In this document: positions 1 through 37,963 of the stretch, one piece after another | Numbering within the stretch: the stretch's first letter is position 1 | Layout: each line of letters opens with the position of its first letter | DNA from: an uncultured SAR116 cluster alpha proteobacterium | Lineage (GTDB): Bacteria; Pseudomonadota; Alphaproteobacteria; Puniceispirillales; Marisalimonadaceae | NCBI GenBank assembly: GCA_902630555.1 | Contig: CACOVB010000005.1 | Location: 1-43,714, forward strand | Direction of reading: 5' to 3' | Length of the DNA: 43,714 bases | Notes under the pieces: generated by a model | What the model was told of the DNA's origin: nothing | The model's input: only the letters and a program-made list of their open reading frames with translations | Database searches by the model: none | Position numbers and translations under genes: made by a program

Positions 1-3000
1 ATAAGCGGAAGTCCTTATCTTGTAGTTCCACAAGATCCTTCTAATCTAAGTGCTGGCTACGAGGCATTTAGCGTTACTATTGATGACAACAGCACTGCTG
101 GTGATCCTTCAGATGATACCGGGACAATTGGTGCTAAAGACACAACAGTAGATTTAACTGGTTGGGATCCTGCTGCACAAGCTGCAAGCAAAATTGGTTC
201 GTTTGCTAGTGATACATTTACTGCAGTTCCAAACAATGCGCCAGTAATTACAAGTCCTGAAACGGGTACTGTTGATGAAAATGATGCGACAGATACAGTT
301 ATTTATGATGCAAATGCAACAGATGACGATAGTGATAGCATTGCATTCTCAATTGATCAGACTGATCCTTCAGATGATTCTGATAAAGTTTCTATGGATT
401 CAGAAGGTGTGGTAACCCTAAATGAATCTGCAAATTATGAAAGTAAAGACAGTTACCAATTTACAGTTGAAGCAACCGATGGAATAGACACTGTAACTAA
501 GGATGTGACAGTCAGTGTAAATGATGTTGATGAAGCTCCAATAGTTACATTAACTGGTTTTACTCCTGGAGGTGCCGATCCTAGAGCAAATAAGAATATT
601 CCTGAAGTTGAAGATTCAGTGATAGAAAATGCAATTCATGCAGAGGGTGTTGCTCCTGGTATAGTGTATGAAATAACAGATACCGATACACTTAACCATA
701 TACTTGATCGTAATGATCATGGCATTACACCTGGTTTATTTGCTTTTGATAGAAACGCTACTCATTTCACGATTTCAAAAGTGGCAGTGACAGATGCATC
801 ATCAGCACAAAAATATTTTGTAAATGTAACTGATCCAACAGAAGATAATATAGATGTTGTAACTAAATATACTTTGGCCCAAGAGCAAGTGCTAGATGAT
901 TATCTTGGCACTAATGCAATATATGAAGGTATTAGAGCATTTTCGACTACTATTAATGCTGATGTTGATACAGTTGATGTTTTGGACACCGGTGAGGATA
1001 TCTTTTTCTCCCTAAATGGAGAGCACTCTAACCATTTTACTATAGACAACTCAACTGGAGAGATATTTTGGAATAACCCGGATGTTGTAGCCGATTATGA
1101 AGAAGTTTCTGGCGCAGTTTATAATGTAATAGTAACCGCTACTGATGTTTCAGCAATCGGTGTACATGGGGCTAGCTCTAACCCACAACCAATTATGATG
1201 TATCTCACTGATGTAAATGAAACTCCAACTATGGAGATTACTGGTGCTACTGATGGTATTATAAATGTTTCTGAGGATAGTGATGTAGCTACGTCTCTTG
1301 CAACAGTTACGACTGACGATGATGATGGTCATACCGTTACCATGAGTGTAGATAATGCTGATTTTTATTTTACGCAAACTGGCGCAGGAACTGGAGTTTT
1401 TGAGTTATTTGCAAATTCATTAGATCACGAAACTGATGACCAAATGGTTGTTAATATTACTGCATCGGATGGTGTAAACTCAGCTTCTAAACAATTAACT
1501 GTTAATGTTGGTGACGTAAATGAAGCCCCTGAGTTTGATTTACCAGTAGGAGGAACCCAAGGGCCAATTAGTTTAACCAATAAAACCATGGAATTTTCTA
1601 TCTCTGAAAATGCAAGTGTTGGTGACATCGTAACTACATTAGTTGCTTCTGATGAAGATGATGGACATTCGCCGATATTTAGCCCTTCTATGTATTCTAC
1701 TTTTAACATTAGTTCAGTTGGTGCAATAAGTGTTAATACAACGCTTGATTATGAAACAGAACAATCAGTTGATTTTACAGTATATGCTACCGATTCTGTT
1801 AATGCTTCTCTTCAAGATTATTTAGACATTAAAATTAATATTCTTGATGTTAATGAAGCGCCAGTTTTAGATACAATAACAACAGTTCCTCTTGAGGAAA
1901 ACCAAACAGATGTGCAATTGGCCCTCGTTACAGCGAATGACCCAGATAATGTTGGTGATGTACCTACCGATCCTACTTATGACAATGTAAGTCTGTCCGT
2001 AGGAGGTGCAGATGCTGCTTCATTTTCCATTAATGCTTCTAATTACTTAACATTTACTGGTCCAGCAAACTATGAAACCGATAAAAAGAGTTATGAAATT
2101 AATGTTGTAGCTACTGATGGAGCTGGTAATACAGATATTGAATCGTTAACTATAGCAGTGGGAGACGTTAATGATGATCCAGTAATTACAAGTGAAACTG
2201 GAACTTTAGCTGCCGCTGTAGATGAAGGTAATACAGTAATCTATAGAGCAGCTGCATCAGATGAAGATGCAGGCACTACTCTTACATATAGCATTTCAGG
2301 TACAGATGCTGACAAAATGACTATTGATGGATCTGGTGTTGTAACATTGAATAGTGCTGCTAATTTTGAAAGTCAACCAAGTTATTCTTTTGACTTAACA
2401 GTTGGTGATGGAACCACAACAGTAACAGAAGGCATTGTTGTTAATATTGCTGATATTAATGAAGCACCAGAAATAACAACTACAACCGCTTCAGATTATG
2501 ACGAAAATCAAGATTACACCTCTAATCCGATTTTTGATGCTGACGCAACTGATCAGGATACAAGTGATAATATAACCTTTAGTCTTGGTAATTCTAAAGA
2601 TGAAGCTGATCTGACAATAGATTCTGTTTCTGGTGAAGTATCATTAAAAGAAAATGCAGATTTTGAAACAAAATCCTCATATGAGTTTGACGTTATAGCG
2701 ACAGATGATGGTGAGGGATTATTGTCTGCAACTCAGCCAATCACTGTTAATATTACTGATTTAAATGAAGATCCTGAACTAACAAGTGGAGCGAGTGGTA
2801 CAGTTGTTGAGAACCTTCCAGATACTACAGTTGTTTATACGGCAACTGCAACAGATCAAGATGCAGGTCATGATGGAAATATACAATTTTCAATTACTTC
2901 AGATGCAACTGATGATTCAGACAAGGTGTCAATAGGGCAGTCTACAGGTGTGGTCACATTGAATAATTCTGCTGATTTTGAGAATCAATCTTCTTATACG

Positions 3001-6000
3001 TTTGAGGTTGTGGCAACAGATCCTCTAGGTCTTACGGATGCTAAAACTGTAACAGTTTCTGTTGAGGATGTGATTGAGAAGTATGGTGACAATCCATCTG
3101 ATAATACAATCGAACTTAATCATGCAGAATTTTCCGGTAGTACGCCAATTACAGGTGTAGGTATAGATCATCTGTCTGTTGATATAGTTATTCCTCTCAG
3201 TGACAAATATAGTTATGGAGAAGGTTATGATAACAGAGCATCAGCAGGTACAACGATAAGTTCGATGGCTTTTGTTCCAGGTCAACAGTTTAATGTTTTT
3301 GAAGATATATTCATATCTTTTGAAAATAATATTGATGCTGGTGGCAATGATAAATTGACTATTGAGTATGTAGGCCAAAAAGCTGTTGATAGTACCAGTT
3401 CTGGATCAGGCACAATTTCTTATAATTATGTTGGTAACTTTGAAGATCTTCATAATGGTGGAACATTAGAATTATATTTTGCTGATGGTTTTGTTGATCT
3501 AGATAGTAGTACTGACTTTAGTTCAGGGGATACCATTCTATATAACAGTGATCTTCCTACAATTACTGTTGGAGGAAACCAAGTGGCTTCTCCACAAGTA
3601 GTTGGACTGTCTTCAACCAGCACTTCAAATGATAATGTATTGCTTGCTGGTGGAAATACACCTGGCCCAGATCAACCAGCAGCTAATTTTGGAGTTGGCA
3701 ATGATAATGTTCTAATTGGAACTAACTCAACAATGGATATGAACGGTGTTTATCTTGGTGGAGTAGGTTTTGACTTCCTTGAATTATACAACTCAGGTGC
3801 CGAAGGCGTTAAAGTTGACTTTGGTGCAGGTGATTTCGGTGACAACTCAGCTTTTGTAAATGTTGCAGGCTCAGACATTGGGTTTGACATTAATGAATTT
3901 GAAAGCTTAAAACTTTCCAATGGCAATGATATTGTTATATTTGAAGATGGTGTAGGTGAAAACCTAACTACAAGATATGACACTGATTATTTCATTCATG
4001 ACATGTCAATGTTTGAAGTAAGATCAGGCGAAGTTTCCAACGGTGGAAGAGACTACTTTTATATCGATAAAGCAAGTAATTTATATCTTAATTATGATTT
4101 TGCAAAATCTGGTATTGATGCTGAATTTGGTAAAAATGCAGGTGTCGAACATGCAAAAATTGAAGCAATAGGTAATAATAATATAAATACTTATGTTGAA
4201 GATACTGGCGGAGTAGGTCAATTAGTTGATTATTTTGAAGCATCTTCCTTCAGCGATATTGTTACTAATTTAAGTAACACTGGTATCACTGTTAACGTTG
4301 GTACATCAGATGGAACGACATACGATGTATTTAAAGGATCTGCAACTTCTGAGTATGATATGTTGGATGCAAGATTAACTTATGACTTAGCCTTTGGTAA
4401 AAATGGAGAATATGTAACTGTAGATGGTATATCAGAACTCAATGCTAAAGAAGTTATGGCTAAGCTAACAAATGTTGACTTTATCATGGTTCGTGATGGT
4501 TTATTAGATGGAGCTGCCAACTATGAACAGATACATGCTCAACTTCATAATGATGATGTCGATTTTTATTCTGACAACTCAGCTATGTATGGCATACAGC
4601 AAATTGCAGGAATAGGCCAATTGTCAAGTGACCTTTACGGTGAAGGTTATGACGTCATGACAAGTGCTGTTTTAGAGACTTTTGGTGACATGTCAGATAA
4701 GAGAATCTTTTATGACGGTAAGCATAGTGACTTTGTGGATACTTATGATCGATTACTAAGTACTAGTGAAGGTACATTTAACATGGCTCTTGATGTTACT
4801 GGAGTTGATGCAAATGTTAATAAGTATGGAATAGGCTCTAACTGGGAGGCTGAAGTTGCAGCAAGTAACCCAGGTGGTACAGCGAGTTCATTCTATATTG
4901 ATGTCAACGGTAAGAAAGTTGCTGTTACTTTTGATGGCAATGGATGGAAAGTTGATAACACATCATTATTTATTGCTCAAAATGCTCAAGATAACCTTGT
5001 TCTTCCAGATCTTGATGCGTTTAGTCAGTTAGTCTCTGATAGATATGATATTAATTATACTACAAGTGGCCAGTTTACGAATAGTATTTATCTAAATGCA
5101 ACAGAACAGCAAATTGGAGAGGTTTTAGCAAGTACTGATGGCTCTATTGATAGCGTAAAAGCCTTTAACTTTGGTTTTTATACTAAATTTGATCTTAATA
5201 GTAATTTAGTAAATATTAAGATTGAAAATGTTGTTGAAACGGCATATAGCCTAACAGATGAGTTAGGTGCTGATCTTACTGCTGGAAACTATGTCTTTAG
5301 AGGAAATGAAACTGATGGATTTACTGTCCATGAAGTTACAGGAACTGGACCATATGTTGTTGACAGTACTGCAATAACTACTACTACAGCTTTAGATACA
5401 GCTATCTCAGCCCTCACACAATCGGACATTGATGGTTATACTTTTTTAGCTAACATAACAAATCCATCAAAGTTTAAGGTTGATCCAAACGATATCGATG
5501 TTCTTGTTGAAGACTTCTATAATGTCGTTGACATTAATGGTGCATCAGTCAACTCAGGTAGTGAAGCTGCTAACTTTGTTAAAGTTGATGATAATTTAGA
5601 CGTTGCCCTTGGTAATGGTGGAGATGACACTTATGTTATCAAGAGTTCTACAAAGGGATCTGCAATAGAATATGGTGATATAAAATCTTCTGGTGGATTA
5701 GCAAACTCAGAATCTGACTCAGTTAACTTTAAAGGGATCACAGATATTGATGATTTAAATTTTGTTAGAAAACAAGTTAGAAACGAACAACAAGATAATA
5801 CATTATCAATAACTGAAAAAGGAAGTGCCACCTCAACTGACTTATTTGACAACTTTAATATCCATCTAGATTTCAGACGTATTGAATATCTAACGATTGA
5901 CGATGGTGCCAACAATAATGAAATATTTGAAATCTCAGTTGATGGGAACAACGGTACTGACGGAACAGGAAAAGATTTAAGTTGGGATAATGAGATTGTT

Positions 6001-6297
6001 GTTGCCTCAAGTACAGGAAGCACAATATCAGCAGATGGAGGAATTGACGTTCTCGTAGGTGGTGCTGGTAATGATACTATTGATTTATCAGGAGTTTTAG
6101 ATGGATCAGAAGTTCACCTTAAAAATATCGATACTGCGAATGACGCCATTGTTAAAGTGTCAGGTACAAGAACTGATACTGTGAATGACGGTAAATTAAC
6201 AGTTGATTTAGGTGCTAGTCAAAGTATGACGATTTATCACGAAGAAGCTGATGATGATGTCATGGCTCAATTGCTAATTGATGCAACATTACCATAA
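1..6297 (+). CDS. Giant cadherin-repeat / RTX surface protein, 5' end outside window
   Basis: The reading frame is open from base 1, so the N-terminus is missing; 2098 residues are visible. From about base 232 to 3080 there are roughly eight cadherin-like domains. Their junctions carry DVDEAP, DVNETP, DVNEAP (twice), DVNDDP, DINEAP, DLNEDP and a degenerate DVIEKY, near bases 526, 1213, 1517, 1848, 2167, 2455, 2758 and 3067. The roughly 1070 residues after that have no fold I recognise, apart from scattered RTX-like calcium patches: GVGNDNVLIG near 3691, GGVGFDFLEL near 3757, GNGGDDTYVI near 5611 and GGAGNDTIDL near 6058. The protein is acidic and I found no cysteine in it, as is usual for type I-secreted RTX proteins. 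Inference: a secreted, calcium-stabilised adhesin or surface-layer-like protein. No type I secretion genes lie in the window. The cadherin and RTX assignment is firm; the role is not. Confidence 0.85.
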   Translation: MSGSPYLVVPQDPSNLSAGYEAFSVTIDDNSTAGDPSDDTGTIGAKDTTVDLTGWDPAAQAASKIGSFASDTFTAVPNNAPVITSPETGTVDENDATDTVIYDANATDDDSDSIAFSIDQTDPSDDSDKVSMDSEGVVTLNESANYESKDSYQFTVEATDGIDTVTKDVTVSVNDVDEAPIVTLTGFTPGGADPRANKNIPEVEDSVIENAIHAEGVAPGIVYEITDTDTLNHILDRNDHGITPGLFAFDRNATHFTISKVAVTDASSAQKYFVNVTDPTEDNIDVVTKYTLAQEQVLDDYLGTNAIYEGIRAFSTTINADVDTVDVLDTGEDIFFSLNGEHSNHFTIDNSTGEIFWNNPDVVADYEEVSGAVYNVIVTATDVSAIGVHGASSNPQPIMMYLTDVNETPTMEITGATDGIINVSEDSDVATSLATVTTDDDDGHTVTMSVDNADFYFTQTGAGTGVFELFANSLDHETDDQMVVNITASDGVNSASKQLTVNVGDVNEAPEFDLPVGGTQGPISLTNKTMEFSISENASVGDIVTTLVASDEDDGHSPIFSPSMYSTFNISSVGAISVNTTLDYETEQSVDFTVYATDSVNASLQDYLDIKINILDVNEAPVLDTITTVPLEENQTDVQLALVTANDPDNVGDVPTDPTYDNVSLSVGGADAASFSINASNYLTFTGPANYETDKKSYEINVVATDGAGNTDIESLTIAVGDVNDDPVITSETGTLAAAVDEGNTVIYRAAASDEDAGTTLTYSISGTDADKMTIDGSGVVTLNSAANFESQPSYSFDLTVGDGTTTVTEGIVVNIADINEAPEITTTTASDYDENQDYTSNPIFDADATDQDTSDNITFSLGNSKDEADLTIDSVSGEVSLKENADFETKSSYEFDVIATDDGEGLLSATQPITVNITDLNEDPELTSGASGTVVENLPDTTVVYTATATDQDAGHDGNIQFSITSDATDDSDKVSIGQSTGVVTLNNSADFENQSSYTFEVVATDPLGLTDAKTVTVSVEDVIEKYGDNPSDNTIELNHAEFSGSTPITGVGIDHLSVDIVIPLSDKYSYGEGYDNRASAGTTISSMAFVPGQQFNVFEDIFISFENNIDAGGNDKLTIEYVGQKAVDSTSSGSGTISYNYVGNFEDLHNGGTLELYFADGFVDLDSSTDFSSGDTILYNSDLPTITVGGNQVASPQVVGLSSTSTSNDNVLLAGGNTPGPDQPAANFGVGNDNVLIGTNSTMDMNGVYLGGVGFDFLELYNSGAEGVKVDFGAGDFGDNSAFVNVAGSDIGFDINEFESLKLSNGNDIVIFEDGVGENLTTRYDTDYFIHDMSMFEVRSGEVSNGGRDYFYIDKASNLYLNYDFAKSGIDAEFGKNAGVEHAKIEAIGNNNINTYVEDTGGVGQLVDYFEASSFSDIVTNLSNTGITVNVGTSDGTTYDVFKGSATSEYDMLDARLTYDLAFGKNGEYVTVDGISELNAKEVMAKLTNVDFIMVRDGLLDGAANYEQIHAQLHNDDVDFYSDNSAMYGIQQIAGIGQLSSDLYGEGYDVMTSAVLETFGDMSDKRIFYDGKHSDFVDTYDRLLSTSEGTFNMALDVTGVDANVNKYGIGSNWEAEVAASNPGGTASSFYIDVNGKKVAVTFDGNGWKVDNTSLFIAQNAQDNLVLPDLDAFSQLVSDRYDINYTTSGQFTNSIYLNATEQQIGEVLASTDGSIDSVKAFNFGFYTKFDLNSNLVNIKIENVVETAYSLTDELGADLTAGNYVFRGNETDGFTVHEVTGTGPYVVDSTAITTTTALDTAISALTQSDIDGYTFLANITNPSKFKVDPNDIDVLVEDFYNVVDINGASVNSGSEAANFVKVDDNLDVALGNGGDDTYVIKSSTKGSAIEYGDIKSSGGLANSESDSVNFKGITDIDDLNFVRKQVRNEQQDNTLSITEKGSATSTDLFDNFNIHLDFRRIEYLTIDDGANNNEIFEISVDGNNGTDGTGKDLSWDNEIVVASSTGSTISADGGIDVLVGGAGNDTIDLSGVLDGSEVHLKNIDTANDAIVKVSGTRTDTVNDGKLTVDLGASQSMTIYHEEADDDVMAQLLIDATLP

Positions 6298-6704: not shown

Positions 6705-6815
6705 TATAACCAAAACTTAACTTTTGCTTATAAATACATTTCTTTATTGATGTATGTTTAAGAATACGTCAAACTAAATAATATAATCAAATTATCTTAC
6801 CTAAAGGAGAAGTTT

Positions 6816-8039
6816 ATGAAAAAATCATTCCTTTCAGACTTTAAATTGAAAATCACTAGCATCATTGTTGGCGCATTATTTTCAGTTTCATCAAGTCTAT
6901 CGTTTGCAGATACAGTTAATATTTTAGGATTATTCCCATTTAGTGGTCCTTATGCAGACTCAGGAAAACTTACTGATCAAGGTGCTAGAATAGCTCTTGA
7001 GGAAGTGAATTATACAATTAATGGTAAAAAAATAAAATATGTTACTAGAGATAGTGAAACGAAAGCCGGTCCAGCAGCTAGAAGAGCACAAGAAGCAATA
7101 GATACAGAAGGCGTAAAATTTATTGTAGGCCCATGGTCTTCTGGTGTTGCATTAGCAGTAACAGAAGTAGCCAAAAAAAATAAAGTTATGTATTACTTTT
7201 CTGGTGGTACAGAAGATATTTCTGGTAAAAAATGTCATAAATACGCATTTATGTGGGCAGCTAACGCATGGACAGCGATGGATGCTAACCTAAAGATATT
7301 TAAAAAAGCTAACCCCAATGCAAAAAAAATATATCTATTTGTAGTTGATTACGCATTTGGGTGGACACTTCAGAAATATGTGGAAAGTCTTGCACCTAAG
7401 TATGGATTAGAAGTTGTAGGTGTTGATAGACATCCACTTGGTCACAGAGAGTACTCAACTTTTATTACAAAAGCTATGTCAACAAATCCAGATGCTGTTT
7501 ATATGATCAATTTTGGATTAGACGCTATTTCAGCAGTTAGACAGTTAAATAATTTTGGTTTTACACCTAAAAAACCAGTTGTTATGTCTTGGTCTTCTGG
7601 TTTTGAAGAGTTAATCCAATTAGATCCTGCCGCAAGAGAAAACCTCATTGTTGGTTCTAATTATTATTATACTATAGATAACCCAGATAATAAAAAATTT
7701 GTAGAAGCTTATAAAAAGAAATTCAAAGGTGTTCCTCCTGGATACGCTGGTGCCGCCGGATATGGCCTCATGAAAATGACTTTGTTAGGCATGCAAAAGT
7801 CTGGCAGTACTGAACCTCAAAAGGTTATTACTGCTTTGGAAGAACATAAAGGAAAGAATTTTGTTGGTGATTTTGAAATAAGAGGAAGAAATCATCAGAC
7901 AGTTCGACCATTTTTTGTTCTACAAACAAAAAAGAAAAGTGAAATGAAAAATAAATACGATATGGCCGAAGTTGTAGATATAAGTTCTACAGAGCAGCCT
8001 AAGAATATCAATATGTGTAAAGATATTGGATCATTCTAA
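6816..8039 (+). CDS. Periplasmic substrate-binding protein of a Liv-type ABC transporter
   Basis: A 407-residue type I periplasmic binding protein of the branched-chain amino acid/amide family (Peripla_BP_6). A signal peptide is clear: a lysine-rich start, a hydrophobic stretch at about residues 13-28 and a likely cut after SFA at residue 31. The mature protein opens with VNILGLFPFSGPYADSG, typical of the first strand and ligand loop of this family. A strong AAAGGAG ribosome site precedes the ATG. It heads an operon with two permeases, two ATPases and an amidase, so its ligand may be an amide, urea-like compound or amino acid; the sequence alone does not say which. A hairpin directly after the stop fits higher expression than the membrane genes. 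Confidence 0.88.
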   Translation: MKKSFLSDFKLKITSIIVGALFSVSSSLSFADTVNILGLFPFSGPYADSGKLTDQGARIALEEVNYTINGKKIKYVTRDSETKAGPAARRAQEAIDTEGVKFIVGPWSSGVALAVTEVAKKNKVMYYFSGGTEDISGKKCHKYAFMWAANAWTAMDANLKIFKKANPNAKKIYLFVVDYAFGWTLQKYVESLAPKYGLEVVGVDRHPLGHREYSTFITKAMSTNPDAVYMINFGLDAISAVRQLNNFGFTPKKPVVMSWSSGFEELIQLDPAARENLIVGSNYYYTIDNPDNKKFVEAYKKKFKGVPPGYAGAAGYGLMKMTLLGMQKSGSTEPQKVITALEEHKGKNFVGDFEIRGRNHQTVRPFFVLQTKKKSEMKNKYDMAEVVDISSTEQPKNINMCKDIGSF

Positions 8040-8058
8040 GTATTTAAATCAATAAATG

Positions 8059-8082
8059 AGACGGCATCCAATGCCGTCTTTT
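8059..8082 (+). terminator. Hairpin after the binding-protein gene (partial terminator)
   Basis: A 9-bp perfect stem, AGACGGCAT / ATGCCGTCT (8059-8067 and 8071-8079), has a 3-base loop and is followed by TTT. It is the most GC-rich stem in the area. It lies between the binding protein and the first permease, so it probably attenuates transcription into livH or protects the upstream mRNA. Confidence 0.75.
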
Positions 8083-8098
8083 AACTTTTAAGAATAAT

Positions 8099-8959
8099 AT
8101 GACCTTTTTAATCATATCTCAAATTTTAAATGGCCTTGGTCTAGGCATGTTGTACGCTCTTGTTGGGGTTGGTCTGACATTAATTTTAGGTGTATTAAAC
8201 ATACCAAATTTTGCTCATGGTGTACTTTATGCTTTAGGTGCGTATTTAGCTTTTACAATTGCTAATGTGACGGGTTCATTTTATTTTGCGATGTTCTTAT
8301 CACCGCTCTTAGTAGTTTTAGTTGGGTTTATTTTAGAAAGTCAAGGTGTTAGAAGATTATATCATGCACATCATGACTACCAACTTTTATTTTTATTTGC
8401 TTGTGCGCTTATCATTCAGGAAATAATTATCATCATTTGGGGACCAATTGGCTTTTCATTGTTACCACCTCCAAGTCTAAGTGGCGCAGTTGACTTAGGA
8501 TTTTTAATATATCCAAAATATAGATTGGTCCTAATCTGCTTTGCATTTTTTATGATTGTTTGTCTTTACTTGTTTCTTACAAAAACTAATTTAGGTGCAA
8601 TTTTGCGTGCTGGGATTGAAAACAGAGATATGGTCAAAGTTCTTGGGATAAATGTAAATGTTGTATTCTTATATACATTTGGTCTTGGGGCGTATTTAGC
8701 AGGTTTAGCAGGCGCTTTATCTGCTCCTATTATGGGGCTAACACCATCTATGGGACTTGATATTTTGCCAATATGTTTTGTAGTTGTTGTAGTTGCAGGG
8801 TTAGGAAGTATTCCAGGTGCTATAATTGCAGGTATTTTGATAGGTTTATCACAAGGTGCAGCGACTATCTGGTTTCCAGAAGCAACAAATGTAGTGATAT
8901 ATGTCATGATGGGATTAACTATAATTTTTAGACCACAAGGTCTTTTTGGTGTAAGATGA
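8099..8959 (+). CDS. livH: Liv-type ABC transporter permease 1
   Basis: A 286-residue inner-membrane permease of the LivH family (BPD_transp_2). The N-terminus GLGLGMLYALVGVGLTLILG and the downstream LNIPNFAHG segment are family hallmarks, as is a late AGLGSIPGAIIAGILIGL stretch. Hydrophobic segments cover nearly the whole length, about eight. It forms the channel with the next gene product; the two overlap by 4 bases (ATGA), implying coupled translation. The ribosome site is weak. The Liv name marks the family, not a proven branched-chain amino acid substrate. Confidence 0.88.
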   Translation: MTFLIISQILNGLGLGMLYALVGVGLTLILGVLNIPNFAHGVLYALGAYLAFTIANVTGSFYFAMFLSPLLVVLVGFILESQGVRRLYHAHHDYQLLFLFACALIIQEIIIIIWGPIGFSLLPPPSLSGAVDLGFLIYPKYRLVLICFAFFMIVCLYLFLTKTNLGAILRAGIENRDMVKVLGINVNVVFLYTFGLGAYLAGLAGALSAPIMGLTPSMGLDILPICFVVVVVAGLGSIPGAIIAGILIGLSQGAATIWFPEATNVVIYVMMGLTIIFRPQGLFGVR

Positions 8960-9915
8960 TTAAGAATAAATATAGTTTTATAGCATTAATAATATTTTTA
9001 TTTGTAGGGCCATTTCTCTTTCCTAATGCAACAATTGCAGAGATGTTAATCTTTGGCATTGTTGCAATATCAACAAATATTATGTTGGGTTACACTGGTA
9101 TGCTATCTTTTGGACAAGCATTATTTTTTGGAACTTCAGCTTACATTTCAGGTTTGATGTTACTTGGTGGTTTTCCATTATTCTTAGCTATACCAGTAGC
9201 TACTCTAGGTTCTTTTATCATTTCACTATTTATTGGCTATTTTTGTGTGAAACGAGAAGGATTATATTTTATATGTCTTACATTTGCTTTTAATCAGATG
9301 TTTTATTTTATAGCTTATGTATGGCATGATGTAACTGGTGGAGAAGACGGCCTTGTTGGTGTTGAAAGACCTGCTTATATAGATACTCAATTAACGTTTT
9401 ATATATTTACAGCGATAATGTTTTTATTTGCTGTTATCGCATTATATAAAATCGTTACATCGCCACTAGGTTTGATTTTTAAACTCATTAGAGAAAATGC
9501 AAGCAGAGCTGAGGCAATTGGTTATAATGTCAGATTTTACAAATTAATCTCATTTTCAATAGCTAGTACATTCACAGGATTAGCTGGATCACTCTATGTG
9601 TTAATTCATAGTATGGTTCCTATCGATCAAATACATTGGTTGAAATCAGGAGATATAATCTTTATGACACTTTTTGGAGGGGTTGGAAGTTTTCTAGGAC
9701 CTTTAATTGGTGTGGTTGGATATATTTGGCTTTCTGATACCTTTTCAATTATTTGGGCAAGATGGCCATTAATTATGGGTGTAATATTCGCAATTGTAGT
9801 TTTATATTTCAGAGGTGGCGTTAGTGAATTATTAGAAAACCTTTTCAAAAAGTACAAATCAATCTCAAGAAAAACTGAACATGAACAAGATATTAAAAAT
9901 ACAAAACTTAACTAA
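8956..9915 (+). CDS. livM: Liv-type ABC transporter permease 2
   Basis: A 319-residue inner-membrane permease of the LivM family. It contains the typical NIMLGYTGMLSFGQALFFG segment near residues 35-55 and SIASTFTGLAGSLYVL near 200, then TLFGGVGSFLGPLIGVVG near 240. About nine hydrophobic segments are visible, and the charged C-terminal tail is cytoplasmic. The start overlaps the livH stop by 4 bases. The end overlaps the ATPase gene by 35 bases, so the last residues of this protein and the first of LivG share DNA. Confidence 0.87.
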   Translation: MIKNKYSFIALIIFLFVGPFLFPNATIAEMLIFGIVAISTNIMLGYTGMLSFGQALFFGTSAYISGLMLLGGFPLFLAIPVATLGSFIISLFIGYFCVKREGLYFICLTFAFNQMFYFIAYVWHDVTGGEDGLVGVERPAYIDTQLTFYIFTAIMFLFAVIALYKIVTSPLGLIFKLIRENASRAEAIGYNVRFYKLISFSIASTFTGLAGSLYVLIHSMVPIDQIHWLKSGDIIFMTLFGGVGSFLGPLIGVVGYIWLSDTFSIIWARWPLIMGVIFAIVVLYFRGGVSELLENLFKKYKSISRKTEHEQDIKNTKLN

Positions 9916-10627
9916 AAATTTTGGAAGTGTTTCTGCTGTTTCTAATGTTAACTTAGAAGTAGAAGAAGGAACAATACACTCGGTCATTGGGCCTAATGGA
10001 GCTGGCAAATCTACATTTTTTAATATGATTTCAGGTGTGATCCCTCCATCAAATGGAAGTGTTTATTATAAAGATAAAAATATTACAGGTTTTGAAAGTT
10101 ATAAATTGCCACATATGGGTATTGCTAAATGCTTTCAAATAACAAATGTTTTTCCAAAACTAACTGTAAGAGAAAATGTATGGGCATCAATTTTTTCTTG
10201 TAGTCATAAAAGTAAAATTGATCTTTTTAAATCAATGAATGATTTTAAAACAATTGATAAAGATACTGAAAATATAATTAGTGATGTAGGTCTTTCTCAT
10301 AAAATTGACGATAAAGCTGAAGAGCTTTCTCATGGTCAACAACGAATGTTGGAGATGGCAATAACTCTTGGTGCTAAACCTGATTTATTATTGTTAGATG
10401 AACCAACCCAGGGACTTGCACCAGAAGCTACAGTTGAAATGACAGGGCTTATTCGTAAGCTCTCAAAAAATTATACTATATTGTTGATTGAACATAAAAT
10501 GCATATCGTTATGGAAATTTCTAAAATAATAACTGTTTTAAATTTTGGAGAGAAAATAGAAGAAGGTACTCCTAAACAAATTAAAAATAGTAAAAAAGTC
10601 CAAGATGCTTACCTAGGAAGAAAATAA
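9881..10627 (+). CDS. livG: Liv-type ABC transporter ATPase 1
   Basis: A 248-residue ATP-binding subunit. Walker A is GPNGAGKST at residues 37-45, the signature motif is LSHGQQRMLEMA, Walker B is LLLLDEPTQGLAPE, and a late EH gives the switch histidine. The signature reads SHGQ where SGGQ is more usual; this variant is common in LivG. Translation starts inside the livM coding end (35-base overlap), and the stop shares one base with the next ATG. With LivF it powers import through the two permeases. Confidence 0.9.
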   Translation: MNKILKIQNLTKNFGSVSAVSNVNLEVEEGTIHSVIGPNGAGKSTFFNMISGVIPPSNGSVYYKDKNITGFESYKLPHMGIAKCFQITNVFPKLTVRENVWASIFSCSHKSKIDLFKSMNDFKTIDKDTENIISDVGLSHKIDDKAEELSHGQQRMLEMAITLGAKPDLLLLDEPTQGLAPEATVEMTGLIRKLSKNYTILLIEHKMHIVMEISKIITVLNFGEKIEEGTPKQIKNSKKVQDAYLGRK

Positions 10628-11325
10628 TGCACTTAGAAATAAAAAATCTGCACACATACTATGGACTAGTACATATGCTAAAAGGTGTAACCCTTAACGT
10701 TAACGAGGGTGAAATTATAAGTATTTTAGGAAGAAACGGAGCAGGAAAAACAACGACAATTAAAAGTATTATGGGCCTTGCTCCTTCTAGTGAAGGAAGT
10801 GTCATATTAAAAGGTGAAGAAATAACAAATTTTGAACCTCATGAAGTAGCTAAAAAAGGAATTTCTTTTGTTCCAGCTAGTAGAGGTATATTTTCAACAT
10901 TAACAGCATATGAGAATTTAAAAATATTTCATTTAAAACACTCAAAATGGAATATTGATGATGTTTTTAAACTTTTTCCAAAACTTGAAAAATTAAAATT
11001 TAGAAATGGAAATTCTTTATCCGGTGGTGAACAACAAATGCTAGCAATTGGAAGATCTTTAGTAATTAATCCATCTGTTATAATGTTAGATGAACCTTCA
11101 CAGGGACTTGCTCCAATGATTGTTGAAGATGTAAAAGAGATGCTTCTTAAGTTAAAAAAAGAGGGTATGAGTATTATTCTTGTTGAGCAAAATCTTCAAA
11201 CTGCCTTGGATGTAGCTGATAGAGTTTATATTTTAGATCAAGGAGAGATTGTATTTGAAGGAAAGTCACAAGAACTCTCTAAAAATAAAAAACTCACTTT
11301 AAAATTTCTTGGTGTGTCTACTTAG
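10627..11325 (+). CDS. livF: Liv-type ABC transporter ATPase 2
   Basis: A 232-residue ATP-binding subunit. Walker A is GRNGAGKT at residues 35-42, the signature is LSGGEQQMLAIGRSL, and Walker B is VIMLDEPSQGLAP. The typical LivF segment GISFVPASRGIFSTLTAYEN is present. It shares one base with the livG stop (TAATG), so the pair is probably translated together. The next gene, an amidase, follows after 14 bases and belongs to the same run. Confidence 0.9.
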   Translation: MHLEIKNLHTYYGLVHMLKGVTLNVNEGEIISILGRNGAGKTTTIKSIMGLAPSSEGSVILKGEEITNFEPHEVAKKGISFVPASRGIFSTLTAYENLKIFHLKHSKWNIDDVFKLFPKLEKLKFRNGNSLSGGEQQMLAIGRSLVINPSVIMLDEPSQGLAPMIVEDVKEMLLKLKKEGMSIILVEQNLQTALDVADRVYILDQGEIVFEGKSQELSKNKKLTLKFLGVST

Positions 11326-11339
11326 TTATAGGAGCTGTA

Positions 11340-12665
11340 ATGTCTTCAAATTATGTTAAAAATCCTGGCAACCTTCAAAATTTATTTAATCAAATTAAAG
11401 ATAAAAAACTTTCACCCGTTGAATTAATTAACAGTTATATAAATAGAATTAACGATACACAAAAAGAAATTGAGCAATGGAAGAGCTATGATTTTGAAAA
11501 AGCTATTGAAACAGCAAAACTAAGAGAACAACAGGTATTAGACAATAATATTTTAGGTCCTCTTCACGGAATACCTGTTGGTATTAAGGACATTATTCAT
11601 GCCGAAGGATTTAAAACTGAATTTAATTGTAAGGCTTTTAAAAATACAGAAGTTTCAAAATTAGATTCTGGTGTTGTTTTAGCTTTAAGATCAGCTGGGG
11701 CAATTATTTTGGGCAAAACACATACAACTGAATTTGCATTTTATGATCCATCTCCAGCAAGAAATCCACATAACCCAAATCACACCCCTGGGGGATCGAG
11801 TAGTGGATCTGGTTCATCTGTTGCAAGTGGAACAGTTCCAATGTCAGTGGGAACACAAACTATGGCATCTGTAAATAGACCAGCAATTTATTGTGGCATC
11901 TCAGCCTTTAAGCCTACAAATGGTTCTATAACAACTTATGGTATATCTCCATTAGCACCGTCGTTTGACACGCCTGGATTTTATGGATGGTCAATAGCTG
12001 ATGCATGTTATGGCTATAACTCAGTATCTTTAAATGACAAATTACCTTTGAAATCTCTGAATAAAGAAGATGTAAATATAGTAGTTATAAAAGACGATTT
12101 AACTTCAGATATTAATCCTAATGTATCAAAACAAATTGAAGAGACTAAATCTATGTTGAAAGAACTAGGTTTTAATGTCGAAGAAAAAGCGTCTCCAGTA
12201 AACTTTAATGACTTATTAGATTTGCATTGGGAAATGTTAATTTATGAAACAGGAAAAAATTTACAATTTTTACTCAATCATTCTGAAGAATTAATTGGGC
12301 CAAGACTACTTCAAATGATAAAAGACGGATTAAATATAAACATTGAAAAATATACAGAAACAAAATCAAAACTTAATAGATCCATAAATAAATTCTTTTC
12401 ATCATTTAATAAAAACACAATTTTTATTTTTCCAGCCATCCCTAATTCAGCTCCTGTAGGTCTGGAAAGTACAGGAGAGCCAAAATATATTGCCCCATGG
12501 ACAGCTTTATCAGGTCCTATTGTAAGTTGTTCAACTGGATTAGATGATAATAAAATGCCAGTTGGAATACTTTTATGTGCGCATCCTTTTAAAGATAGAT
12601 ATTTATCCAATTTTTGTTTGGATATTTATAACAAGTCAGAATACTTCACAGGTCTTAAACTTTAA
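11340..12665 (+). CDS. Amidase signature family hydrolase linked to the ABC transporter
   Basis: A 441-residue amidase of the GatA/FAAH-type family, which splits C-N amide bonds with a Ser-cisSer-Lys triad. The triad fits Lys83 (HGIPVGIKD), Ser153 (start of the GGSSSGSGSS loop) and Ser177 (TMASVNRPA); the 24-residue gap between the two serines matches FAAH. The usual GGS before the nucleophile is MAS here, which may alter the oxyanion hole. The protein has no signal peptide, so it is cytoplasmic. An AGGAG site precedes the ATG, only 14 bases after livF. It is unlikely to be tRNA amidotransferase GatA, because gatB and gatC are absent. Inference: it hydrolyses the amide brought in by the upstream transporter. 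Confidence 0.82.
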   Translation: MSSNYVKNPGNLQNLFNQIKDKKLSPVELINSYINRINDTQKEIEQWKSYDFEKAIETAKLREQQVLDNNILGPLHGIPVGIKDIIHAEGFKTEFNCKAFKNTEVSKLDSGVVLALRSAGAIILGKTHTTEFAFYDPSPARNPHNPNHTPGGSSSGSGSSVASGTVPMSVGTQTMASVNRPAIYCGISAFKPTNGSITTYGISPLAPSFDTPGFYGWSIADACYGYNSVSLNDKLPLKSLNKEDVNIVVIKDDLTSDINPNVSKQIEETKSMLKELGFNVEEKASPVNFNDLLDLHWEMLIYETGKNLQFLLNHSEELIGPRLLQMIKDGLNINIEKYTETKSKLNRSINKFFSSFNKNTIFIFPAIPNSAPVGLESTGEPKYIAPWTALSGPIVSCSTGLDDNKMPVGILLCAHPFKDRYLSNFCLDIYNKSEYFTGLKL

Positions 12666-12671
12666 TTAAAT

Positions 12672-12691
12672 AAGAATAACAATTTATTCTT
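12672..12691. terminator. Hairpin between convergent genes
   Basis: Stem AAGAATAA / TTATTCTT (12672-12679 and 12684-12691) with a CAAT loop lies between two convergent genes, and its right arm covers the stop of the minus-strand gene. It is AT-only with short T/A flanks, so it may work in both directions but weakly. Confidence 0.4.
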
Positions 12692-13514
12692 TTATACTTA
12701 AATCTTCTTTCACCTGTCCATCATAAGAACTTTCGGAAAAAGATCTTTCGTTATCCCAAATATTAGATGGCATAGGAAGTCCAGAAAACAAAGACTCATT
12801 TAATGCAATTTTTGGAATTATATTAAGCTTCTCCTTAAGAAGTAATTCAACTTGTCTGCAATGTTGTCCTGAATGCCATGCTGTTCTCTCAAGAACTTCA
12901 TGAAATGAAACTTCTCCATAATAGACATTTGCAGGTTTTGAGAAATGAAAATTCTTTCCTTCATTAGACCACCAACTTTCAAATCTTAACTTAATATCTT
13001 CAGCATAATCATAGAGATCATTTTCATCTTTTATTTTATCAGGAAGTATTGAAAGTAAAGCTTCATAAGTGTAAGGAGTATCATTTTGAAAGTAATTTAA
13101 AAAGACCTCGGGAATATTAAAAATATGATAAATTAATTGTCTATATGATCTTGGTCTTCCTGGTAATATAACATCTAATTTTGATGCTGGTATTTGTTTT
13201 AAAAAAGAGCATGTAATTTCGTTGATTTGAATAATTTTTGAAAAAAGGATATTAGGGGCGAGCATTTTATGCTCGTCATAAGAGAATTCTGCAACTTTTG
13301 CTACATCTCTAAAAACAGCACCATTTGCCCAGTTTTCTCCTTTAATAACAATAGGAACCATTCTTAATCCAAATTTTTCTAAATCTTTAAATCCTCTTGG
13401 ATCTTCTAATATGTTTATGGATTCAAATTTAATATTATTTGTTTCAAGAAATTCTTTTGTTTTTAAACAACTTGAACAACCTGGTTGCCAGTAAACTTTT
13501 ACCACTTCATCCAT
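12684..13514 (-). CDS. Glutaredoxin-DinB domain fusion protein
   Basis: A 276-residue cytoplasmic protein with two domains. Residues about 4-75 are a glutaredoxin/thioredoxin-like fold with a CSSC redox site (Cys13, Cys16) and a VP pair at residues 53-54 in the cis-proline position. Residues about 90-230 look like a DinB/YfiT-type four-helix bundle. It keeps the three expected metal histidines: His130 (LIYHIF), His214 and His218 (WHSGQH). DinB-like enzymes often use a thiol cofactor, so linkage to a glutaredoxin suggests a thiol-dependent transferase or repair activity; that is inference. The ATG has a GAGGA site upstream. It is convergent with the amidase gene and divergent from the dehydrogenase gene. 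Confidence 0.8.
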   Translation of the reverse strand: MDEVVKVYWQPGCSSCLKTKEFLETNNIKFESINILEDPRGFKDLEKFGLRMVPIVIKGENWANGAVFRDVAKVAEFSYDEHKMLAPNILFSKIIQINEITCSFLKQIPASKLDVILPGRPRSYRQLIYHIFNIPEVFLNYFQNDTPYTYEALLSILPDKIKDENDLYDYAEDIKLRFESWWSNEGKNFHFSKPANVYYGEVSFHEVLERTAWHSGQHCRQVELLLKEKLNIIPKIALNESLFSGLPMPSNIWDNERSFSESSYDGQVKEDLSIKE

Positions 13515-13641
13515 ATTAAGATCCTCATAGTAGTTTTAATAAATATATAATAATTCTATACTAAGTTATTTAATACTTAAATTATGAATATTTTATCGTA
13601 CTGAGTCTATTAATTAAAAAAACAAAAGAGGATAAGACGTT

Positions 13642-14532
13642 ATGAATGCAAAACAATATAATATTGGCTTTATTGGTTTGGGGCTTATGGGTAAAGGTTT
13701 TACTGAACGTCTTGTTAAAAAGGGTCATTCAGTCATTGGTTATGATCTGGATTTTAAAAAAGTTGAAGAAGCTTCAGTCTATGGTGTTCGTGCCGGAAAG
13801 TCTCCTGCAGATGTTGCGTATCAAAGCGATATAGTGATGTTGTGTGTAACTTCTACTGCTGCAGTTGAGGATGTAATTTTTGGACCTGAGGGAGTCAGTA
13901 AGGGTGCAAATTCAAGAAGTTTACTAATTGATTTTTCGACAACTATTGTTGCTTCTACAAAAGAGATGGCAAGACGCTTAAAAGAAGAGTCAAATATGGG
14001 GTGGATTGATGCTCCAGTATCTGGAGGACCAGATGCTTGTCGAGATGGATCGCTTGCCATAATGGCTGGTGGCAGTAAAGATGATATTGAGAGTGTTAGA
14101 ACATTGCTGGAACAACTTTCGGCAACTTTTACAGTTTTTGGAGATGTAGGTGCAGGACAGGTCGCTAAAATGGTTAATCAAGTGTTGGTTTTGAATAATT
14201 ACGTTGTTCTTGCAGAAGCACTTGCCTTAGCAGAAGCAGGTGGTATTGACGCTTCTAAAATACCTGAAGCTCTTGCAGCAGGACATGCTGGTTCAAATTT
14301 ATTACGAGATATATTTCCTAGAATGATTGCTAGAGATTTTGAACCTAAAGGATATGCACGACAAGTCCTTAAAGATCTTGATATGGTGTATGATCTAGCA
14401 AAAGAATTCAAAACCCCAACACCTATGTCAGCACAAGCAGCAGCCTTGTTTCGTATTTTTAACTCTAAAGGTCATGAAGAACTGGATGGTATTGCAATTT
14501 TAAAACTCTTTGATGGTCAAGATAAAGTTTAA
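13642..14532 (+). CDS. NAD(P)-dependent beta-hydroxyacid dehydrogenase (3-hydroxyisobutyrate dehydrogenase family)
   Basis: A 296-residue cytoplasmic oxidoreductase. The N-terminal Rossmann motif GLGLMG (residues 12-17) binds the dinucleotide. The substrate loop DAPVSGG (123-129) and the catalytic lysine in GAGQVAKMVNQ (Lys176) are intact. Family members act on 3-hydroxyisobutyrate, tartronate semialdehyde or related small hydroxyacids; this sequence does not decide between them. It stands alone between a divergent gene and a convergent crotonase gene. Codon use is less AT-rich than in neighbours such as the crotonase, which may reflect higher expression. Confidence 0.85.
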   Translation: MNAKQYNIGFIGLGLMGKGFTERLVKKGHSVIGYDLDFKKVEEASVYGVRAGKSPADVAYQSDIVMLCVTSTAAVEDVIFGPEGVSKGANSRSLLIDFSTTIVASTKEMARRLKEESNMGWIDAPVSGGPDACRDGSLAIMAGGSKDDIESVRTLLEQLSATFTVFGDVGAGQVAKMVNQVLVLNNYVVLAEALALAEAGGIDASKIPEALAAGHAGSNLLRDIFPRMIARDFEPKGYARQVLKDLDMVYDLAKEFKTPTPMSAQAAALFRIFNSKGHEELDGIAILKLFDGQDKV

Positions 14533-14637
14533 TTAAGAAATCTATTTTATTACTAAAATATGTGTTAGATTTATCTGCTCTTTAAAAACTTGTTTCAAAA
14601 GAGTTAATTTCTTTGTTTTAATATTACTCCGAATAAA

Positions 14638-30683: not shown

Positions 30684-31136
30684 ATGAATAAGCCAATTGC
30701 TGAAAATAAAAAAGCAAGATTTGATTACAATATTACTGAAACTTTAGAAGCTGGGATTGTTTTACTAGGTAGTGAGGTAAAAAGTTTGCGTCTTGGAAAA
30801 GCCAGTATTAGAGAAGCTTATGCAAGTCAAGAAGATGGAGAACTTGTTTTAATCAATTTTAATATCCCAGAGTATGATTTAGCAGCCAAAGGACAAAATC
30901 ATGAGCCTAAAAGGTTTAGACAATTACTATTACATAAAAAAGAAAAAAATAAAATTTTTGGAATGATAAAAAGAGATGGTTATACGATAATTCCATTGAG
31001 TTGCTACTTTAACAAAAAAGGGATTGTTAAAGTTAACTTAGGTTTTGCTAAAGGTAAAAAACAAGTTGATAAAAGAGAAACTATAAAAAAGAGAGATTGG
31101 GAAAGGTCAAAGCAAAGACTCTTAAAAGTGCAATAA
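30684..31136 (+). CDS. smpB: tmRNA-binding protein SmpB
   Basis: A 150-residue protein of the trans-translation rescue system, delivering tmRNA to stalled ribosomes. It has the beta-barrel motifs ETLEAGIVLLGSEVKSLR and SIREAYA, the KGQNHEPKRFRQLLLHKKE segment and the basic C-terminal tail with KRETIKKRDWERSKQRLL. The tmRNA gene itself was not seen nearby. It is 5 bases after dapA, and its last 15 bases overlap the convergent UDG pseudogene. Confidence 0.95.
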   Translation: MNKPIAENKKARFDYNITETLEAGIVLLGSEVKSLRLGKASIREAYASQEDGELVLINFNIPEYDLAAKGQNHEPKRFRQLLLHKKEKNKIFGMIKRDGYTIIPLSCYFNKKGIVKVNLGFAKGKKQVDKRETIKKRDWERSKQRLLKVQ

Positions 31137-31742
31137 TTTTTTTATCAATTTAAAAGTATTATCCAAATCAGAAATTTTTAATCTTTTAGTATTAATATTA
31201 TATTTTGAACAGTGATAACAGTTAATTAAAGTAATTTGATCATTGATCTTATGTTTTTTTAGGTGTTTGAATTTATATTCAGATAGGTTTTTATTTAATG
31301 CAATGACAGTACTGTTGTGAGAAATTTGACCTAATGTTAAAATAATTCTTAGGTTTCTCATTTTGTTTATTTCTGAGCTTAAAAAAACATTACATTTTTT
31401 TATTTCTAATGAATTCGGTTTATTGTTAGGTGGTAAACATTTGACTGCGTTTGTTATTCTACATTTTATATTATTTGTAATTTCAAATTCAGTATAGTTT
31501 TTTGAAATGTTATATTTTTTTAAGAACTTGAAAAGTAAATTTCCAGAAAAATCACCATTAAAAATTTTACCTGTTCTATTTGCTCCTCTTAATCCAGGCG
31601 CCAAACCAACAATTAAAAGTTTACTAGAAAGTGACCCTATCCCTAAAACTCTATCATTTTAAAAGTCTGGAAATAAGATTTTATTTTGATTTCTATAATC
31701 AACTAATCTATTACAAATAGTGCAATTTTTTTTTGGTTCCAT
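31122..31742 (-). pseudogene. Family 5-type uracil-DNA glycosylase, interrupted by an in-frame stop
   Basis: Reading from ATG at 31742 gives a start with CTIC (Cys7, Cys10) and NRLVDYRNQNK. There is then an in-frame TAA at 31661-31659, after FPDF. Without any frameshift, the frame continues NDRVLGIGSLSSKLLIVGLA and the catalytic PGLRGANRTGKIFNGD. Two more cysteines follow (AVKC and IKKC), completing a four-cysteine iron-sulfur set, and NCYHCSKYNINTKRL stands in for the usual SYHPSxxNxxTxRL. Counting the stop codon, 206 codons give a normal family length. A late start at TTG 31604 would lose the first two cysteines and a core strand. Options are a recent nonsense mutation, read-through, or a sequence error. 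The last 15 bases overlap smpB. Confidence 0.8.
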
Positions 31743-31772: not shown

Positions 31773-32276
31773 ATGAAAAATAAATTTATCATAGCTGTTG
31801 GATCAAATATAAATAGTCCAGAGGGTTTTGACCCAATAGAAAACTGTAATAAAGCTATAAATGAACTTTCTAAATTTAATATAAAGATAATTCAAAAGTC
31901 ATCTTGGTATTTAAGCGAACCTATCCCAAAAAGTTCTCAACCAAAATATTATAATTCTGTATTTTTATGTAATTCAAATCATGATGTTAATAAAGTTTTA
32001 AAAATTATTCAAATTGTAGAACAAAAATTTGGACGTGTAAGAATTTTTAAAAATATGTCAAGATGTATTGACCTTGACATTATATCATTTAATGGAAATG
32101 TAAAAAATTCATTGTTATTAAAAATTCCACATCCAAGAATGCATTTAAGGAAATTTGTTTTATTGCCACTTTTTGAAATAGATGCACATTGGTTACATCC
32201 ATTGTTAAAAAAGAACATTCAATTTTTTTTAGAAAAAGTGAAATGCCAAAAAATTAAAAAATTAAAAATTGATTGA
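31773..32276 (+). CDS. folK: HPPK, folate biosynthesis pyrophosphokinase FolK
   Basis: A 167-residue enzyme that transfers pyrophosphate from ATP to 6-hydroxymethyl-dihydropterin. It opens FIIAVGSNINS, has YYNSVF for pterin contact, RCIDLDII (the two metal-binding aspartates) and IPHPRMHLRKFVLLPLFEI, which closes the ATP site. The usual RWGPR stretch reads FKNMSR here, a moderate divergence. It is divergent from the UDG pseudogene by 30 bases and followed by rpoZ, a normal alphaproteobacterial arrangement. Confidence 0.9.
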   Translation: MKNKFIIAVGSNINSPEGFDPIENCNKAINELSKFNIKIIQKSSWYLSEPIPKSSQPKYYNSVFLCNSNHDVNKVLKIIQIVEQKFGRVRIFKNMSRCIDLDIISFNGNVKNSLLLKIPHPRMHLRKFVLLPLFEIDAHWLHPLLKKNIQFFLEKVKCQKIKKLKID

Positions 32277-36540: not shown

Positions 36541-37287
36541 ATGAAAAAAAGTAAAGATAAAAACAATAATAGTTTTTATGAATTAATAAAAACCTTATTT
36601 TACGCAGGTACTATAGCTGTTCTTTTTAGATCGATTTTATTTGAGCCTTTTAATATACCATCAGGGTCAATGATACCATCATTATTAGTTGGCGATTACT
36701 TGTTTGTTTCAAAATATTCTTATGGTTATTCAAGATATAGTTTCCCATTTGGCATTTTGCCAATTAAAGAAAGATTGATGTACGATGTTCCTCAAAGAGG
36801 GGATATCATAGTTTTTAGAAAACCAGGAGATGAAAAAGTTGATTATATAAAAAGATTAATTGGATTACCTGGTGATACTGTTCAGCTTATAGATGGTCGG
36901 TTATATGTTAATGACAAATTGGTTAATAGAAAAAAAACTAATATTGGCCAAATCACTAAAAATAATGGAAGTAAGATAAATCTTATTGAATATGAAGAAA
37001 ATATTTTTGACACAAAATCATACAAAATAATTGAAGCTAGTGATAATGATTTTTTTGATAATACTATCAAATTTACAGTACCTTCTGATAATTTTTTCTT
37101 TATGGGAGACAACCGTGATAATAGTAAAGATAGCAGAGCTTCCGAGGTTGGTTTTGTACCAAAAATTAACTTAATTGGTAAAGCACAAATTATATTTTTT
37201 TCGCATAATGGATCTGCTAGATTTTATGAATTTTGGAAATGGCATAATTTAATTAGATTTTCAAGAATTGGAAAAAAAATTGAATAA
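36541..37287 (+). CDS. lepB: Signal peptidase I LepB
   Basis: A 248-residue membrane-anchored serine protease that removes Sec signal peptides. One membrane helix spans about 17-33. The catalytic pair is Ser43 (IPSGSMIPSL) and Lys104 (YIKRLIGLPGD), and MGDNRDNSKDSR is conserved box E. Its last 20 bases overlap the most likely rnc start. Confidence 0.95.
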   Translation: MKKSKDKNNNSFYELIKTLFYAGTIAVLFRSILFEPFNIPSGSMIPSLLVGDYLFVSKYSYGYSRYSFPFGILPIKERLMYDVPQRGDIIVFRKPGDEKVDYIKRLIGLPGDTVQLIDGRLYVNDKLVNRKKTNIGQITKNNGSKINLIEYEENIFDTKSYKIIEASDNDFFDNTIKFTVPSDNFFFMGDNRDNSKDSRASEVGFVPKINLIGKAQIIFFSHNGSARFYEFWKWHNLIRFSRIGKKIE

Positions 37288-37963
37288 ACTATATTCTGAA
37301 ATTGAAAAAATTTTAGATTATGAATTTAAAGATATTAATTTATTAGATGAAGCTCTTACTCATTCAAGCATAAAGATAAATAATAAACATAAAAAAGTTT
37401 TTAATTATGAAAGATTAGAATTCCTTGGAGATAGAATTTTAGGTTTTGTAATATCTGATTTGATATTTAAAAAATTTCCTAATTTTCGAGAAGGTGATTT
37501 AAGTATATTATTTCAAAAATATACCAATACAAAATTTTTATCAAATGTAGCAATAAGTTTAAATTTAAGCAAGTTTGTGGTTGTACAAAAAGGAGACGCT
37601 TTAGAAAAAAAAGACTCAATAATGTCTGACCTTATTGAATCCATAATTGCTGCAATTTATATTGACTCAAATTTAGATAATGCAAAGTTTTTTATTGAAA
37701 ATAAAATATTAAATAACTCAAATATTAAAAATGTTGTTGATAAGCATCCAAAAAGTTTACTTCAAGAATTTTCTTTAAGGTATTATAAAAAGATTCCAGT
37801 TTATACTGTTGAAGAAAAAACTGGCCCAGACCATGACCCTCAATTTAAAGTAAATGTATCAATTAATTCTCAAAATTATGCTTTTGGTAAAGGTTCAAGC
37901 ACACAGAAGGCTCAGGAAGAAGCTGCAAAAAATCTTTTAAAAATAATGGAGTCTAAAAATTAA
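37268..37963 (+). CDS. rnc: Ribonuclease III
   Basis: A 231-residue double-strand-specific RNase for rRNA and mRNA processing. Catalytic acids Glu51 and Asp55 (YERLEFLGD) and Asp121/Glu124 (DLIESIIAAI) are present. The dsRNA-binding domain from about 160 has the usual KSLLQEF and AQEEAAKNLL. The start is TTG at 37268 or at 37280; both lie inside lepB. Its stop overlaps the proposed era start by 3 bases on the DNA. Confidence 0.93.
   Translation: MEKKLNKLYSEIEKILDYEFKDINLLDEALTHSSIKINNKHKKVFNYERLEFLGDRILGFVISDLIFKKFPNFREGDLSILFQKYTNTKFLSNVAISLNLSKFVVVQKGDALEKKDSIMSDLIESIIAAIYIDSNLDNAKFFIENKILNNSNIKNVVDKHPKSLLQEFSLRYYKKIPVYTVEEKTGPDHDPQFKVNVSINSQNYAFGKGSSTQKAQEEAAKNLLKIMESKN
37948..37951 (+). 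promoter_or_regulatory. Ribosome binding site supporting ATT start of era
   Basis: GGAG lies 7 bases before ATT at 37959, an ideal spacing, inside the last codons of rnc. In the era frame no ATG, GTG or TTG occurs between the preceding stop (37944-37946) and the TTG at 38019, which is already past the P-loop. Confidence 0.65.

Follow-up and report, generated by a model that had tools for sequence, protein, structure and literature searches.

A premature stop codon in the family-5 uracil-DNA glycosylase gene of a SAR116 bacterium, probably a very young null allele

The udgb gene of an uncultured SAR116 cluster alphaproteobacterium encodes a family-5 uracil-DNA glycosylase (UDGb) and lies in the window analysed here, the whole stretch of 43,714 nucleotides from contig CACOVB010000005.1. 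We read this locus, with a probability of roughly 70%, as a very young null allele (an incipient pseudogene) of an ancestral SAR116 gene that has been lost repeatedly in the genus. A single substitution would have turned codon 28 into TAA, and translation would end after 27 residues, ahead of the catalytic motif. The allele is known from one genome assembly (976,564 bases in 64 contigs, 57% complete), and we take the base call at the stop to be true. Most likely the case is one of ordinary, ongoing repair-gene loss and not a new kind of system, and it offers a small, clean example in which close relatives have repeatedly lost one base-excision-repair enzyme and one of the copies appears to bear just its first lesion. 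Among the papers searched, none names both SAR116 and uracil-DNA glycosylase.

A single interruption in the UDGb reading frame

Translated from the minus strand, the locus forms one open frame of 206 codons in which the TAA at codon 28 is the sole internal stop; the terminal stop is also TAA (Table 1). Read with X at the premature stop, the product matches the Pfam domain PF03167 (E 4e-21, above the cut-off), and both halves align with 91% identity to one intact 206-aa ortholog from SAR116 bacterium MED-G100 (G005; L034 1487-2104, minus strand), the stop being the only interruption. This ortholog occupies the same smpB-udgb-folK position and differs in carrying a Tyr codon, without a stop, at position 28. 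The initial annotation, which described a uracil-DNA glycosylase cut by a single in-frame TAA, is thereby confirmed, as is its observation that the four Fe-S cysteines (C7, C10, C102, and C117) and the catalytic GANRTG motif (motif-1 region GLAPGLRGANRTG) are present; the motif-2 region YHCSKYN is retained as well, and no second lesion was found in the window copy. The stop is not an accident of chance ORF structure, since dN/dS along the intact lineages is 0.09.

Every ortholog that aligns at codon 28 has a Tyr or Phe codon there, and none has a stop: TAC in G005, G011, and G006, TAT in G012, and Phe in G002, G007, G008, G009, G004, G010, and G015. One base change suffices to explain the break, as had been proposed; of the specific suggestion that TAT (Tyr) became TAA, the tyrosine agrees with the nearest relatives, while the codon does not, the nearest copies having TAC.

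The stretch from the stop to motif 1 contains no ATG, GTG, or TTG codon, and a complete Fe-S enzyme therefore could not be made from a downstream start. Restart was rejected, as the first available start, a TTG at 31604, is Leu47 inside GLAPG; initiation there would omit two Fe-S cysteines, and the resulting ORF is unlikely to be functional because C7, C10, and the first 46 residues are missing. The uninterrupted frame of an active family-5 enzyme is broken here by the TAA at codon 28, and, judged from its sequence, the window allele would lack enzyme activity.

Table 1 Features of the udgb locus in the window
Feature	Position	Strand	Description
udgb	31122..31742	-	Family-5 uracil-DNA glycosylase gene, 206 codons plus TAA, broken at codon 28
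Premature TAA	31659..31661	-	Codon 28; Tyr or Phe codon in every ortholog aligning there
5′ fragment	31662..31742	-	27 codons upstream of the premature TAA; of the Fe-S cysteines only C7 and C10 lie within
Longest ORF downstream of the stop	31122..31604	-	TTG start = Leu47 of GLAPG; without C7, C10, and the first 46 residues; unlikely to be functional
Motif 1 region	31569..31607	-	GLAPGLRGANRTG, residues 46-58
Cys102	31437..31439	-	Third predicted Fe-S cysteine; Tyr in the decayed G004 and G007 copies
Cys117	31392..31394	-	Fourth predicted Fe-S cysteine
Motif 2	31206..31214	-	His177-Cys178-Ser179
smpB	30684..31136	+	Convergent neighbour; overlaps the udgb 3′ end by 15 bases
folK	31773..32276	+	Divergent neighbour; start codons of folK and udgb 30 bases apart

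The enzyme belongs to family 5 and is not the main Ung, a point missed by the initial annotation. Among solved structures its best match is the Thermus thermophilus family-5 UDG 2d3y (E 1.2e-21, 81 bits, against at most 39 bits for other entries), and it resembles the Thermus enzyme (2d3y, 2ddg) in length, in the CxxC and two further cysteines, in the GLAPG...GANRTG-like motif-1 region, and in the NTxRL tail of motif 2. The four cysteines align to those of 2d3y and are predicted Fe-S ligands. Unlike the Thermus protein, the window copy has HCSKYN instead of HVSRQN in motif 2 and is stopped at codon 28; HCS is also found in the UDGb of other genomes of the order (L091, L093, L095) and is therefore not damage. 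Motif 1 is of the family-5 type (GLAPG/A followed by GANRTG), as opposed to GEAPG in family 4 (seen in L092) or GQDPYH in family 1 (GQDPYHG in L049). Assignment to family 4 was rejected on this motif and on a TIGR00758 score of 74.6 bits against a cut-off of 125.3.

Independent decay in the genus and the age of the stop

The gene order dapA-smpB-(udgb on the minus strand)-folK-rpoZ-relA is common to the genus, and the udgb locus is present in 12 of the 13 genus genomes compared, the window genome (G000) counted. Named relatives recovered with the G005 ortholog are mostly SAR116 cluster alphaproteobacteria. Complete genomes of the order (G037, G043, G042) also have UDGb adjoining smpB, and the gene is therefore ancestral. 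In the two genomes examined from genera g2 and g3 of the family (L103, L104), smpB and folK are adjacent and udgb is absent from between them. These two genera also encode UDG proteins of family-4-like layout (L088, L090, L102) in which GEAPG is replaced by DSPPD, DCTPD, or DGMPN, and which are possibly diverged or inactive family-4 UDGs retained in UDGb-less sister genera.

Seven of the 12 relatives (G002, G005, G006, G008, G009, G010, G012) have an intact udgb at the smpB/folK position, and in three it is badly decayed, with differing frameshifts, stops, and active-site changes. The copies of G004 (the same locus as AG-426-A06, L065) and G011 (the same locus as AG-891-N20, L064) each carry several frameshifts along with active-site or Fe-S changes, and that of G007 (L036) has a 1-base deletion in an A-run near codon 5, two TAA codons, and the substitutions Gly63Glu, Cys102Tyr, and His177Tyr. 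These genes are inactivated at the same locus as in the window and differ from it in their frameshifts and their active-site or Fe-S substitutions; the TAA of the window is absent from all three. Since G004 and G007 have Cys102Tyr in common, they may descend from one first loss; even with that pair counted once, the lesions indicate that the gene was inactivated separately at least three times, the other two cases being G000 and G011. That the same gene has been independently wrecked in sister species had been missed before. No break in smpB was seen in any of the 12 genus genomes where smpB was found. UDGb is best read as a repair gene under intermittent constraint in the genus.

The status of udgb in G003 (AG-895-J18) is uncertain, as the start of rnc, inverted, stands in place of its 5′ part. 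At L085 899-1573 the first part of rnc runs in frame into udgb at about codon 33, so that a 225-aa fusion protein would be read, and no other rnc copy was found in that assembly. A biological fusion was rejected: rnc lies at 37268-37963 in the window order, about 6 kb from udgb, and in the gene order of the genus the two are on opposite strands; the join is therefore most likely an inverted amplification chimera, of the multiple-displacement (MDA) type whose mechanism is treated in PMC1855051.

A codon model with dN/dS by branch class was fitted to the udgb orthologs under two topologies, T1 and T2, of which the gene itself prefers T2. The ratio is 0.092 on intact lineages but rises to 0.32 for the three decayed tips, an improvement of 2dlnL 29.7 over a single rate. 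The raised ratio that marks relaxed selection in a pseudogene is absent from the window tip, which at 0.094 lies at the level of the intact copies, with a profile upper bound of about 0.24 under T1 and an estimate of 0.089 under T2; constraining this tip to the rate of the decayed copies worsens the fit by 2dlnL 5.7. On the assumption that the ratio rises to 1 once the gene is inactive, the bound leaves at most about 16% (about one sixth) of the tip for the time after inactivation. Hence the stop, unless it is not real, must be very young, which agrees with the initial suggestion that the loss, if real, is recent.

A true mutation weighed against error and other explanations

The main rival explanation, unlikely but of appreciable weight, is that the gene is intact in the organism and that a wrong base arose during amplification or assembly of a single-cell or low-coverage genome. 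Most of the genus genomes that could be found by name come from single cells (AG- assemblies), and the window genome is possibly another; the inverted rnc/udgb join of G003 affects the same gene and is typical of MDA chimeras (PMC1855051); and a base error in an intact gene would likewise leave a copy with neither relaxed selection nor a second lesion. Against this, benchmarks of the single-cell workflow (PMC6122165, PMC8443664) found about 5 mismatches and 3 indels in every 100 kb. At such rates the window, with 40 kb of coding DNA, should contain about 0.1 nonsense errors and udgb alone 0.0016; the indel rate leads one to expect about 1.2 frameshifts, yet none was seen in the window genes that align to G005. 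We surveyed breaks in 102 genes (99 kb) orthologous to G005 within 412 kb of the window genome, window included, and udgb was the only one broken inside a contig. The sole other broken gene, the ortholog of a 289-aa G005 gene at contig C4 1-730, is frameshifted at the very edge of the contig, probably through an assembly-end error. Because the only gene known for repeated loss in the genus is the one that carries the lone nonsense codon, we favour a true mutation over error, by our own estimate (not a computed ratio) roughly 3 to 1.

Read-through, programmed or suppressed, that would give full-length UDGb had been raised by the initial annotation and is highly improbable. The frame and catalytic residues are kept downstream of the stop and the window tip is still constrained, but TAA ends more of the window's genes than any other stop (27 of 39), codon 28 is a stop in none of the relatives, no conserved recoding feature is seen, and the sister lesions include frameshifts, which stop-codon read-through would not rescue. 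Equally improbable is an older silent inactivation, for example of expression, in an ancestor of G000 and G011 that was followed by separate lesions: the udgb sequences favour these two as sisters (lnL gain 7) and both copies are broken, yet dN/dS on the G000 tip is still 0.09 whichever topology is used and the two have no lesion in common. A very young null thus remains the preferred reading.

Ung as a probable backup, base composition, and other parts of the window

Family-5 UDGs remove uracil and hypoxanthine from DNA, and act synergistically with Ung in Mycobacterium smegmatis (review PMC8438529). If the window allele is a young null, loss of UDGb would plausibly be tolerated because the genus also encodes the family-1 enzyme Ung (L049, L050, L052), which would act as backup; an intact Ung was found in eight genus genomes, one of them G007, whose UDGb is dead. 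In the 57%-complete window assembly ung was not found and its neighbours are likewise missing. Given that this neighbourhood too is unassembled, a real loss is not concluded, and in this organism too Ung may buffer the loss of UDGb. A more speculative extension, which we hold to be doubtful, is that UDGb is under fluctuating or intermittent selection, such that nulls arise and segregate repeatedly in natural populations, repair of uracil and hypoxanthine shifts to Ung alone, and the mutation rate is transiently altered, the window allele having just arisen. The repeated loss of UDGb lets one ask whether the mutation spectrum is changed in free-living streamlined marine bacteria.

The link once drawn between loss of this enzyme and the AT-rich base bias was not upheld. 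Third-position GC of the flanking genes is 0.137-0.159 in genomes with intact and broken copies alike (0.175 in G003, on fewer codons), so AT richness is independent of UDGb loss. An effect of udgb loss on base composition was accordingly rejected, which argues against this loss as the source of the AT richness.

Elsewhere in the window, a 1967-aa ORF at 394-6297 shows only a weak, partial match to its 1665-aa counterpart in G005 (54% across the final 280 residues), although most of its neighbours are 75-99% identical to G005; by sequence it would be a fast-evolving large protein. Positions 6804-14534 have 93.5% DNA identity to G005 and positions 14635-43714 have 86.6%, and the higher identity of the former suggests recent exchange or stronger constraint.
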